Part shown: in pieces, positions 15,283 through 19,918 of the stretch
How the letters are laid out: each line of letters opens with the position of its first letter
Position numbering within the stretch: position 1 is the stretch's first letter
NCBI RefSeq assembly: GCF_900636365.1
Contig: NZ_LR134266.1
Span: 1,067,501 to 1,131,500, forward strand
Length of the DNA: 64,000 bases
Direction: 5' to 3'
Source: Streptococcus viridans
Lineage (GTDB): Bacteria; Bacillota; Bacilli; Lactobacillales; Streptococcaceae
Made by a program: the position numbers and the translations under genes
The notes under the pieces: model-generated
Databases searched by the model: none
What the model was told of the DNA's origin: nothing
The model's input: the letters and a program-made list of their open reading frames with translations, nothing else

Positions 15283-15309
15283 GAGCTTCGGTTATCTTGA
15301 CCGAAGCTC
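15283..15309. terminator. bidirectional terminator between pepT and the pyr operon
   Basis: Perfect 10-bp arms GAGCTTCGGT and ACCGAAGCTC around a 7-nt loop, with T-rich sequence on both outer sides. Confidence 0.85.
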
Positions 15310-15314
15310 ATTTT

Positions 15315-17042
15315 CTATTCATCCAAATATTCTACCTGACCAAACTGGCTGTTAATCTGGTCTTGGTAAGTCTCATAAATTGAGAGGGGGATTCGCAAGC
15401 AAGTATCTGCTTCATGTCCTGCAAAAGGACGATGTGTCAGAAGGGCTACTTTTCTTCCCTTTTCATGCTCCTGCTTCAAGCAATCTATCAGTCTAAGAAT
15501 CTGGCTCGAATCTTCTGGAGCGCTTCGATCAACCAATAATGTCCATTGACTCCAATCTGGTGCCTCATTCTCGCCACAGATCGAAGTATAGTAAGAAACC
15601 CTTTCGCCAACTTGACCGAATCCAGCTGTTAAATCCAAAGGACGTAATTTTAGCTCAGGACATAGTTGCTCCTTCTCTTGTCGCTCATACAAGTAAAGAT
15701 TATATAAAAACTGGAGATAAAACGGATCCATTCGACTCAGGTCACTCACTTCTTCCATCTCGAACCCTCGATGAAATGCCTCTAAGATAGATGAGAAGCG
15801 ATATGGCATTCGTTTAGCAATCCGTTGAATGAGTTCATCGTCCGAAACCTCTTTTAGAATATGCTTAGGCCATTGATCCGAACCGAAATTTTCAACGGCT
15901 TGCTGATAGGCTTCTTCTAGACTTGTACCAAACCCATGAATTGCACCAACTGAATGAATTTGTGTGTTGAGAACTTTTGTCACCTTTTCCATTGGAAAAA
16001 CAGGGAGTTTAAAGAAAATACGATCTAGAGTGGGTTCAAAGAGGGCTGTAAGACCCTTCATCGTAGGATGAGGAAGATCCAAAAGGTGGTCGCCTAATTT
16101 TAAGCATAAGGCCTGGTGATAAATCGAATAACCTAAGGCCATGGACATGGTCGAGAAGGAATCCGAAGCAAAAGGATTGACCTCAAGAATATAGAATTGG
16201 TAACTCTTTGGATCTAGCGCAAACTTGATGGACGTCGCTCCAACTAGTCTCAAATGCCGGACAATAGACAGTGCTGCCTCTCTCAAGGTCTGATGCTCGG
16301 TATCCGTCAGCGTCAGACTAGGGATGACTTGATAAGAATCACTGGAATGGATCCCCACCGGGTCGACGCTCTCAATGTTTCCCGCAAGGTAATAATTATC
16401 CTGACGATCTCGGACAACGATGTATTCCAACTCCTTGAAACCAACCGTCGAGAACTCCAACAAACACTGAGCCTGTGGCGATACTTCTAGTCCTTTTTCG
16501 ACAGCATCACATAAATCATCCAAGTTATTAGCGATCCGACGGCCTTGCCCATGCTTGCTGGCAAGTGGCCAAACAACAATAGGGAATTGGATTTGCTCTG
16601 AGAACTCAATAGCCTCTCTGACTGTCGAAACCAAGGAAGAGGAAGGAACTTGATAACCTAAGTCCTTTAGAAAAGACTTTTGGTCTGCCTGGTGGTAAAA
16701 GGTACGGTACTGCCTAAGCGAAGTTCCTAGAATACGGATCTTGTGTTCCTTGAGAAACCCAATTTCCTCCAATCGAAATAATAGCCCAAGGACTTGCTTA
16801 TCCGCAAATGACAGCAGTAAATTTTTGGTTTTCGTCGCTAGAAGGGCTTCTTTTAGACTATCCAACTTTAAACGAATAACGGAAACAGCATTTCCTACTT
16901 CTTTTGTGATTCCGTTCTCGTCTCCACAATAGAGGATTTCTGTCTGGTAGCCACGTTCTTTTAATAAGGGACAAGACGTGAGTGCTCCAAGCAAACTGAC
17001 ATCATTGAAGGATTCTGCACACAAAAGCGTTACTTGATTCAT
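15315..17042 (-). CDS. half-length, substituted CarB homologue (carbamoyl-phosphate synthase large chain-like)
   Basis: 575 residues from ATG at 17042, with AGGAG 8 nt upstream and ATGA overlap with the carA-like stop. Normal CarB is about 1060 residues. This one aligns with the N-terminal half: pre-ATP-grasp, ATP-grasp and oligomerisation domain, then a stub of the second half. The second ATP-grasp and the allosteric domain are absent. The family's GGQT motif is missing. At positions equivalent to E. coli R169, Q285 and R303 it has Trp158, Lys273 and Phe291, while Glu287 and Asn289 (EVNP) remain. Landmarks such as KELEYIVVRD and PVGIHSSDS make the ancestry clear. Carboxyphosphate and carbamoyl-phosphate synthesis is unlikely. 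The frame is open and clean, so it may be a retained pseudoenzyme. Confidence 0.82.
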   Translation of the reverse strand: MNQVTLLCAESFNDVSLLGALTSCPLLKERGYQTEILYCGDENGITKEVGNAVSVIRLKLDSLKEALLATKTKNLLLSFADKQVLGLLFRLEEIGFLKEHKIRILGTSLRQYRTFYHQADQKSFLKDLGYQVPSSSLVSTVREAIEFSEQIQFPIVVWPLASKHGQGRRIANNLDDLCDAVEKGLEVSPQAQCLLEFSTVGFKELEYIVVRDRQDNYYLAGNIESVDPVGIHSSDSYQVIPSLTLTDTEHQTLREAALSIVRHLRLVGATSIKFALDPKSYQFYILEVNPFASDSFSTMSMALGYSIYHQALCLKLGDHLLDLPHPTMKGLTALFEPTLDRIFFKLPVFPMEKVTKVLNTQIHSVGAIHGFGTSLEEAYQQAVENFGSDQWPKHILKEVSDDELIQRIAKRMPYRFSSILEAFHRGFEMEEVSDLSRMDPFYLQFLYNLYLYERQEKEQLCPELKLRPLDLTAGFGQVGERVSYYTSICGENEAPDWSQWTLLVDRSAPEDSSQILRLIDCLKQEHEKGRKVALLTHRPFAGHEADTCLRIPLSIYETYQDQINSQFGQVEYLDE

Positions 17043-18136
17043 GACCATAACTCCTCCCTTCTTTCGTCTAATTTACTTTCAATCAGATCCATAAATTCGT
17101 CATAGAAATAGAGACTTTCCCTTGGTCCTGGACTGGACTCAATATGGTAGAGGACACCGATCAAAGGAAGATAGCGGTGACGAAAGGCCTCAATCGAGTG
17201 ATCATGAAGCTCCTCATGGGTGATCAGAAAATCACGTGGAAGAGTATCGCGCTCGATGTTGTACTGGTGATTCTGGCTAGTGATTTCGACTTTTCCAGTA
17301 GCCACCTCTTTTACCGGAATGTTGAGACCTCGATGAGGACTTTTTAGTTTCGCGAGGCTTCCCCCGTGGGCAAGGGCCAGCAATTCTGCCCCCAAGCCGA
17401 TCCCCATAATCGGAATATGAGGATCAATTTTAGCAATAACCTGGCAAATACCATCGATATGATGAGGATTCCCTGGACCACTAGATAGAATAATGCCATC
17501 TGGCTGCAAATCCTTCAATTCCTTCAATTTAACTGAATAAGGAACGACCGTGACGTTACAACCCCGCGCAATCAATTGACGCAAAACGGAATGCCGTAAG
17601 CCCAAGTCAATCAGGACAATACTCTTCCCAAATCCTGGTGCAGCATAGGGCGTTTTGGTCGACACCTGACGGACTTGGTCAAAAGGCAAGACGGTTGCCC
17701 GAAGCTGGTCTAAGATATGCTCGATCGCATCCCCCTCATTGACCACTGTAGCCTTCATACTTCCATGTTCAGTAACAATTTTAGCCAGCTTTCGAGTATC
17801 GACTCCTTGGATCCCTGGAATATTGTGTTTCTTCAGATAAGCATCTAAGGATAACTGTTTGCGCCAATTACTGGGATGACTCGCTAATTGATGCACTACC
17901 ACTGCTAGACACCCAGGAAAAATAGATTCATAATCATCTCGGTTTATCCCAGTTGTACCGATAACTGGAAAAGTAAAGGCTAAAATTTGCCCCTTATAGG
18001 ACTGGTCGGTAATCAACTCCTGATAACCCGTCATGGCAGAATTTAAGACCAATTCTCCACTGACATAGGTATCAGCTCCAAAACCAGTTCCTTCAAAAAC
18101 CGTCCCATCTTCTAACACTAAGAGACGTTTTACCAT
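17039..18136 (-). CDS. carA: CarA homologue lacking the catalytic cysteine (carbamoyl-phosphate synthase small chain-like)
   Basis: 365 residues, normal CarA length, with LVLEDGTVFEGTGFG, GTTGINRDDYES and SSGPGNP landmarks. CarA is the class I glutaminase that passes ammonia to CarB. The nucleophile segment, usually GICLGHQ, reads GIGLGAE here. Gly247 replaces Cys (codon GGC at 17396-17398, one base from TGC), and the following His and Gln are also changed. The His331/Glu333 pair (YHIESSPGP) is kept. HRGLNIPVKE replaces the usual HRGANHPVKD. Glutamine hydrolysis should therefore be lost. It sits downstream of pyrB and overlaps the CarB-like gene by ATGA. Confidence 0.85.
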   Translation of the reverse strand: MVKRLLVLEDGTVFEGTGFGADTYVSGELVLNSAMTGYQELITDQSYKGQILAFTFPVIGTTGINRDDYESIFPGCLAVVVHQLASHPSNWRKQLSLDAYLKKHNIPGIQGVDTRKLAKIVTEHGSMKATVVNEGDAIEHILDQLRATVLPFDQVRQVSTKTPYAAPGFGKSIVLIDLGLRHSVLRQLIARGCNVTVVPYSVKLKELKDLQPDGIILSSGPGNPHHIDGICQVIAKIDPHIPIMGIGLGAELLALAHGGSLAKLKSPHRGLNIPVKEVATGKVEITSQNHQYNIERDTLPRDFLITHEELHDHSIEAFRHRYLPLIGVLYHIESSPGPRESLYFYDEFMDLIESKLDERREELWS

Positions 18137-18226: not shown

Positions 18227-19144
18227 TTATTTCCGTCCAGCTAAAACCGCTTCGATGATAGCCATGCGGACAAAGACACCGTTGGTCATTTGCTCCACAA
18301 TGCGTGATTTAGGAGCTTCTACCAAATGGTCAGCAATCTCCACATCACGGTTTACTGGAGCTGGGTGCATCAAGATGGCTGTGTCTTTCATACGATCATA
18401 GCGTTCTTGTGTCAAGCCATGCAAACGATGGTAGTTCTCTTTTGAGAAGAGAGATTCATAATCATGACGCTCGTGTTGCACACGGAGGAACATCATGACA
18501 TCGACCTCTTCGATTACTTCATCAATCGTCACAAAGGTTCCGTATTCTTCAAACTCTGCACTTCTCCACTCGTCTGGACCAGCAAAGTAAAGAGTTGCTC
18601 CCAAGCGTTTCAAGATTTGCATATTGGATTTTGCAACCCGTGAGTGATCCAAGTCACCAGCGATACAAACCTTAAGTCCATCAAAATGACCAAACTCTTG
18701 ATAGATGGTCATCAAGTCTAGCAAACTTTGACTTGGGTGTTGACCGGATCCATCTCCCCCGTTGACAATAGAGGCTGTGATAGTTGGACTTTCAATCAAT
18801 TGCTTGTAGTAGTCTACTTCTGGGTGACGGATGACGCAGATATCAACTCCGAGAGCTGACATGGTCAAAATGGTATCGTACAGAGTTTCACCCTTGTTTA
18901 CAGAGCTCGTTTTCACATCAAAGTCAAGGAGGTCACAACCTAATTTCAACTCAGCCACTTCAAATGCTTTGTGCGTACGTGTTGACGACTCAAAGAAGAG
19001 GTTAGCCACGATATGTTGCTCATCGTAATGAGCTTTTGCTCCATTTTTAAACTCAATACCACGCTTAATCAAGGCCATAACTTCTTCGTTTGATAAAGCT
19101 TCCATTGAGACAAGGTTTTTAAGTGCGATTTGATTTGTAGACAT
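18227..19144 (-). CDS. pyrB: aspartate carbamoyltransferase catalytic subunit
   Basis: 305 residues from ATG at 19144, with GGAG 7 nt upstream (the frame to 19162 lacks this). The enzyme joins carbamoyl phosphate and L-aspartate to form N-carbamoyl-aspartate, the committed step of pyrimidine synthesis. The carbamoyl-phosphate site [16 protein letters not shown] is near residue 50, with [15 protein letters not shown] near 130, [13 protein letters not shown] near 160 and [11 protein letters not shown] near 265. All key motifs look intact, in contrast to the two downstream genes, so its carbamoyl phosphate must come from elsewhere if those are inactive. Confidence 0.97.
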
Positions 19145-19183
19145 GTTGTAACTCCATTCCAAAGATATGCATATGTGAAAACG

Positions 19184-19237: not shown

Positions 19238-19759
19238 TTATTCACTCACCTCGATCAAGATGCGATCTTGACCATCTAGCTCAGTCATCTCGACAATGAT
19301 TTCCTCTGATCGACTTGTTGGAATGTTCTTTCCAACATAATCTGGTCGGATCGGCAATTCTCTATGACCACGATCCACTAGGACTGCCAGGCTGACACGT
19401 GATGGACGTCCACGACTGACAAGATTATCGATGGCTGCTCGAATGGTCCGACCTGTATAAAGGACATCATCAATCAGGATGACATCTTTGCCAGTAATAT
19501 CTACTGGTAAAACGGTTGAATCTTCTGTTACTTTGATATCATCACGGAAAGGCTTGGTATCCAATTCACAGACTGGAACTTCTATTTGTTCTAGCTGTGC
19601 TAACCGTTCTTTGATGCGATTGGCAATGAAAACGCCACGAGTTTTGATCCCTACCAAAACAATTTGGCTCAGATCCTTATTCCGTTCGATGATTTCATAA
19701 GTGATGCGAGTAATTGCTCGCTTCATGGTCAGATCATCAACGACTTTTTTGATCTTCAT
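19238..19759 (-). CDS. pyrR: bifunctional pyr operon attenuator / uracil phosphoribosyltransferase PyrR
   Basis: 173 residues, full length. PyrR binds the pyr leader RNA when UMP is abundant and favours termination. It also has weak uracil phosphoribosyltransferase activity. The PRPP loop is [17 protein letters not shown] near residue 97, with [14 protein letters not shown] near 35 and [19 protein letters not shown] in the C-terminal third. AGGAGG-rich sequence precedes the start. It is the first gene of the operon, directly behind its own attenuator. Confidence 0.97.
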
Positions 19760-19780
19760 CTTTTCCTCCTAATTGATAGA

Positions 19781-19895
19781 AAAAAGCCTCCCTTTCCAAG
19801 GAGGCTTCAGAAAAATATCAAGAGATAAGACCTAGAACGCATCTAGTTCACCCCTTATTTTGATCAGACTCCTTGCCTGCCTCACGGGACAGGAT
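19781..19895 (-). promoter_or_regulatory. PyrR-dependent transcription attenuator leader
   Basis: On the minus strand the leader carries a PyrR-binding element with CCCGTGAGGCAGGCAAGGA (19870-19888 region), matching the conserved GNGAGG loop and flanking stem. About 60 nt later a terminator hairpin has arms GCCTCC and GGAGGC (19786-19805) followed by TTTTTTC. This is the standard Firmicutes arrangement for UMP-sensing attenuation by PyrR. The intervening sequence could form the competing antiterminator. Confidence 0.88.
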
Positions 19896-19918
19896 TAAAG
19901 GACTATTTAATTATCCAT

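Follow-up and report, generated by a model that had tools for sequence, protein, structure and literature searches.

A catalytically impaired carbamoyl-phosphate synthetase pair retained under purifying selection in the pyr operon of a Streptococcus clade

The pyr operon of a Streptococcus clade contains a carA-carB pair whose products have lost what a normal carbamoyl-phosphate synthetase (CPS) needs: there is no glutaminase nucleophile, the carboxyphosphate site is broken and the second ATP site is missing. The pair, referred to here as the dead pair (dead CarA and dead CarB), is the only CPS-like pair of its genome, lies in a PyrR-controlled operon and is under strong purifying selection. 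By membership tests it is not a CPS, and its identity as a CPS-derived pseudoenzyme is well supported. The best overall explanation, which we favour with modest confidence, is that the pseudoenzyme serves as a ligand-sensing regulator of pyrimidine synthesis, in a pathway whose aspartate carbamoyltransferase, PyrB, would be fed by arginine catabolism or carbamate kinase. The locus was analyzed within a 64,000-nucleotide stretch of DNA (the window), which belongs to a complete 1,998,575-base Streptococcus genome.

The operon is read from the minus strand and begins with a PyrR binding site and attenuator leader (19777..19905; RF00515, 55.4 bits vs a cut-off of 54), followed by pyrR, encoding the pyr operon attenuation regulator (19238..19759), and pyrB, whose product has 305 residues from the likely ATG (18227..19144; the listed open reading frame starts with TTG at 19162). 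The dead carA (17039..18136; 365 residues) and dead carB (15315..17042; 575 residues) come next, and a bidirectional intrinsic-terminator-like hairpin (15283..15309, assigned to neither strand) separates carB from the convergent pepT. A sequence-only reading of this DNA had described pyrR and pyrB as normal and the two car frames as clean and overlapping by ATGA. Both descriptions hold: PyrR and PyrB score above the NCBIfam equivalog cut-offs with the PyrR binding site upstream, and both car frames are open. The carA stop and the carB start share ATGA at 17039..17042 on the minus strand, an arrangement suggestive of translational coupling, and the same 4-nt overlap occurs in the sister group. 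The first in-frame ATG of carB (17048) would give a protein of 577 residues; the second gives 575 and overlaps the carA stop. Normal Streptococcus carA and carB are ~23 nt or more apart. The overlap was considered as a hallmark of the dead pair and dropped, because carA and carB overlap in other, normal-CPS Lactobacillales families too; only among streptococci does it stand out.

Dead CarA, characterized from its open frame, domain profiles and active-site alignment, retains the CPSase small-chain domain (residues 6–131) and the GATase domain (174–350). Alignment with the GICMGHQ motif of normal Streptococcus CarA confirmed the previously noted glycine and altered neighbors, with the nucleophile Cys replaced by Gly247, the His by Ala250 and the Gln by Glu251. 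The GICxGHQ nucleophile elbow with its catalytic Cys is thus absent, and Gly247 is invariant across the two groups (A and B) into which the clade divides. The later catalytic His is present in the window protein (YHIE) and is a Gln in the parasanguinis group. Dead CarA nevertheless scores 382 bits against TIGR01368 (glutamine-hydrolysing CPS small subunit), above the cut-off of 307, so that such genomes are likely to be read as CPS-encoding and metabolic models to credit them with a missing enzyme. Vertebrate CPS I, which is ammonia-dependent, has likewise lost the glutaminase Cys and kept the domain; it differs in being a full enzyme with both ATP sites, whereas the synthetase of the dead pair is broken too.

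Dead CarB was characterized from its open frame, profile and active-site alignments and a fold model. It covers columns 53–636 of normal CarB, corresponding to the N-half, the oligomerisation region and the first Rossmann stretch of the C-half. The end of the alignment at column 636 bears out the earlier description of a 575-residue protein without the second ATP-grasp and allosteric domains; one ATP-grasp domain is present. Against TIGR01369 (CPS large subunit, ~1050 positions), the protein scores 293 bits, below the cut-off of 1027, and matches positions 57–480 only. Five substitutions fall in the active site (R129Q, R169W, Q285K, R303F and R306D in E. coli numbering). The sequence-only reading had correctly numbered three of them as Trp158, Lys273 and Phe291, which are equivalent to E. 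coli R169, Q285 and R303 (W160, K275 and F293 in the 577-residue numbering) and are invariant across groups A and B. The carboxyphosphate-site set R129/R169/Q285/E299/N301/R303/R306 is complete in 51/51 normal CarB sequences, and the window clade keeps only E299 and N301, the metal ligands; E208, E215 and H243 are also retained in the clade.

An AlphaFold model of dead CarB built from 50 CarB sequences (pLDDT 87, pTM 0.88) matches the CPS structure 1c30_A with a TM of 0.88 (query length), a match to be read with the bias towards the CPS fold that the normal CarB sequences in the alignment impart. Prediction from 12 dead CarB sequences alone gave a pLDDT of 45 and was set aside, and a search of a viral structure library returned only generic ATP-grasp matches. 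The dead pair resembles E. coli and Streptococcus CarA/CarB in its homology over the whole of CarA and the N-half of CarB, in its predicted CPS fold and in its operon position after pyrB behind a PyrR leader; it differs in lacking the nucleophile Cys, the catalytic Arg and Gln residues, the second ATP-grasp and the allosteric domains. The retained E299 and N301 leave room for some ATP chemistry. A neofunctionalised enzyme, in which CarB would use its ATP-grasp chemistry for another reaction or for weak ammonia-dependent chemistry with CarA as a scaffold, would explain why these and the other three retained residues persist and why conservation within CarB peaks in the ATP-grasp domain (69% identity between groups, vs 24% in the C-terminal 117 residues, the lowest of any region); human CPS I, moreover, works with ammonia despite the lost glutaminase Cys. 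We regard such an enzyme as unlikely, since R129, R169, Q285, R303 and R306 are all gone, E299 is also lost in nearly all dead pairs outside the window clade, and a protein with no second ATP site could not phosphorylate carbamate in the normal way.

The dead pair is old in the clade, being carried by two divergent groups. All 18 named loci fall in group A (S. australis, S. rubneri, S. xiaochunlingii, Streptococcus sp. bf_0095 and the window genome) or group B (S. parasanguinis, Streptococcus sp. F0442, HSISM1 and others), with identical gene order in both. Between the groups, pyrB is 95% identical, CarA 67–68% and CarB ~54%. Pairwise dN/dS, calculated by the Nei-Gojobori method within each group, is 0.018 (group A) and 0.028 (group B) for carA, 0.114 and 0.096 for carB, and 0.016 and 0.042 for pyrB. 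The loss of catalytic residues is therefore combined with dN/dS well below 1, as expected of a pseudoenzyme under selection. The sequence-only reading had proposed such a retained pseudoenzyme in place of ordinary decay, with orthologue alignment and dN/dS as the check; the invariance of the substituted residues in both groups, dN/dS values of 0.02–0.11 and the intact state of both frames in 17 of the 18 loci all support the proposal. Slow decay, by which a carAB made redundant on an arginine-deiminase background would drift towards loss, could account for related species cleanly without carAB, for the split carA of HSISM1 (the one exception among the 18 loci), and for a CarB that has lost its C-half and whose C-terminal segment diverges fast. 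It is nonetheless very improbable: the pairwise values disfavor it strongly, the frames have stayed open across two long-separated groups, the ATGA overlap is conserved, and similar constraint is seen in other families. The chance that a sequencing or assembly artefact mimics the active-site changes, an error at Cys247 having been raised earlier, is negligible, as identical changes are present in numerous independent assemblies from several species and nothing was found in favor of it. In HSISM1 (L070 4911–6001), carA is split into open reading frames of 108 and 238 residues next to an intact carB, which could reflect a true frameshift or a draft error. In group A (L040, L041), the first 335 codons of carB are 91–99% identical and the C-terminal segment falls to values down to 55%, a drop that suggests recombination or very fast change there.

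As the source of carbamoyl phosphate, the sequence-only reading had pointed to another carAB or to the arginine deiminase route. The first suggestion fails: a search of the complete window genome found no second carA, only two weaker glutamine-amidotransferase matches, and no second carB, the other CPSase_L_D2 matches being shorter ATP-grasp proteins of 351–465 residues. For the second, the genes are in place as an arcA-arcB-arcC operon that could supply carbamoyl phosphate. The later pyrimidine pathway looks whole, given that pyrB, pyrC and pyrF are present and that pyrD and pyrE lie beside pyrF in the sister genomes inspected. Ornithine transcarbamoylase (OTC) and carbamate kinase were found in 12/12 clade genomes tested and are the likely source in the clade; either ArcA/ArcB, starting from arginine, or carbamate kinase would provide PyrB with carbamoyl phosphate, and the clade may depend on arginine catabolism for its pyrimidines. 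In a genus sample of 147 genomes, carbamate kinase (arcC) was above the cut-off in 20/20 genomes with pyrB and without intact CarA, and in about 50/122 with intact CarA. This association lends arginine-linked supply suggestive support only, the 20 genomes falling in about four lineages that are not phylogenetically independent. Pyrimidine synthesis without CPS has a likeness in the archaeon Thermococcus kodakarensis, in which carbamoyl phosphate is obtained from arginine through ArcB (PMC13260591); that system differs in using arginine synthetase, and its abstract mentions no dead CPS. Five relatives without CarA (G027, G040, G102, G008 and G017) keep a pyrB at 92–93% identity. Three of them, G027, G102 and G040 (L098, L099 and L100), have the order pyrR-pyrP-pyrB with nothing where carAB would be, and retain carbamate kinase and OTC. 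Two small Streptococcus genomes, G004 (L124) and G142, carry a pyrB of another type (~32% identical) near pyrF, and have carbamate kinase and no CarA.

Dead pairs also occur elsewhere in Lactobacillales. Comparison of CarA across the order first showed a nucleophile Gly outside the clade, and a DNA pattern written for this Gly elbow then matched 47/398 Lactobacillales genomes from three families (13 of 80 genera); the reversed pattern, used as a control, gave 0 matches. The window clade contributes 18 of these, genus g10 of family f2 four, and family f9, probably Lactobacillaceae in view of its many genera, 25. Their CarB partners are defective as well. In f2, dead CarB is full length (1063–1066 residues) with R129P, R169M, Q285R, E299G, R303C and damaged C-half sites; in f9, it has about 821–838 residues, with E299 changed to K/R and R303 to Y/F; in the divergent Streptococcus genome G111, a CarB of 579 residues carries E299Q, N301G and R303G. 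Genus g9 of f9, missed by the Gly-elbow pattern, has CarB copies of 1054–1058 residues with both sites broken. Across 55 dead CarB N-sites, R129 is lost in every one, few keep R303 and the metal ligands are often lost, while E215, G241, H243 and D246 are mostly retained. In E. coli CPS, the lost residues take part in the handling of phosphates, the metal and bicarbonate; E215 makes contact with the ribose. The dN/dS of dead carA in f9 and f2 is about 0.006 to 0.066 over few usable pairs, values that point to strong constraint. In 22 of the 25 f9 loci, pyrR lies directly upstream of the dead pair, and no other pyr genes were seen near such pairs in three loci with wide flanks (G169, G177 and G200). 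Several f9 genomes also have a normal carAB; at least eight show dead CarA only, so a mere subunit role in the normal enzyme does not account for the dead pair. In g9 (L187, L188 and L189), a second full-length CarA/CarB lies beside lspA-rluD-like genes with no pyrR neighbor; its CarA carries the nucleophile Gly and its CarB is broken at both ATP sites. In G111 (L196 6676–10856), a short-chain-dehydrogenase-like open reading frame separates pyrR from a dead carA-carB that is very divergent, and pyrB, pyrC, pyrD and pyrF are located elsewhere (L197).

As dead pairs usually adjoin pyrR, their job in Lactobacillales is probably regulatory rather than enzymatic. One such job would be limited to PyrB, with the dead pair as a structural or assembly partner that stabilises aspartate carbamoyltransferase or channels to it. 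The placement of pyrB immediately before the dead pair in the window lineage and its 95% identity between groups fit this idea, and a precedent exists in the inactive dihydroorotase chain (pDHO) needed for aspartate carbamoyltransferase activity in P. aeruginosa (PMC7053772). What the two share is that a homologue of a pyrimidine enzyme has lost its activity and is kept in the pathway for a non-catalytic role, which for the dead pair is presumed; the differences are that pDHO derives from another enzyme, and that the recurrent neighbor of dead pairs is pyrR, contact with PyrB being putative. A PyrB partner seems improbable to us, because the dead pairs of f9 and G111 lie beside or near pyrR and not beside pyrB, and because the 92–93% identical pyrB of relatives without carAB implies that such a PyrB needs no partner. 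The preferred reading, regulation of pyrimidine synthesis by a ligand-sensing pseudoenzyme, would proceed as follows. Translationally coupled and with both core folds conserved, CarA and CarB would still form a CPS-like heterodimer; this heterodimer would retain part of the nucleotide-binding pocket and bind a ligand non-catalytically; and it would thereby act as a regulatory component, most likely through PyrR-dependent operon control and possibly through PyrB. The PyrR-dependent role is favored over one limited to PyrB on the strength of the recurrent pyrR neighbor, an adjacency that may itself be ancestral, as pyrR normally heads the pyr operon. Whatever its function, it is dispensable in some lineages, as relatives with a closely similar pyrB have lost carAB altogether.

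More broadly, and only tentatively, Lactobacillales may have repeatedly turned CPS into a non-catalytic sensor complex that, with PyrR, adjusts pyrimidine synthesis in response to a signal, be it a nucleotide, bicarbonate or carbamoyl phosphate, the complex being the sole CPS remnant in the australis/parasanguinis clade. L. plantarum reportedly has a second PyrR, PyrR2, which couples the expression of pyr genes to inorganic carbon (work cited in PMC3582564); the f9 pairs similarly follow a pyrR copy, whose orthology to PyrR2 is putative. A selected, pyrR-linked dead CPS with at least two origins suggests that pyrimidine synthesis has a layer of regulation not recognised so far, and opens to experiment the question of how lactic acid bacteria adjust this synthesis to the supply of carbamoyl phosphate or inorganic carbon. 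No account of a bacterial CPS pseudoenzyme or of the S. parasanguinis CPS emerged from a limited search of open papers.

Phylogenetic analysis of CarA supports at least two independent origins of the dead pair, and four are possible. The window-clade CarA is monophyletic (support 100/100), and the dead CarA of f2 groups with normal f2 CarA (support 98/97). AU tests rejected a single dead-CarA origin for the window clade and f2 (p 0.0002), for f2 and f9 (p 0.005) and for all dead CarA (p 0.014); a joint origin was not rejected for the window clade with f9 (p 0.14) or with G111 (p 0.43). Long branches weaken the placement of the window clade in the second tree. In genome G280 (L198), the CarB partner aligns poorly and differs from the other f2 dead pairs, which may make it a case of its own or a different stage in the process.
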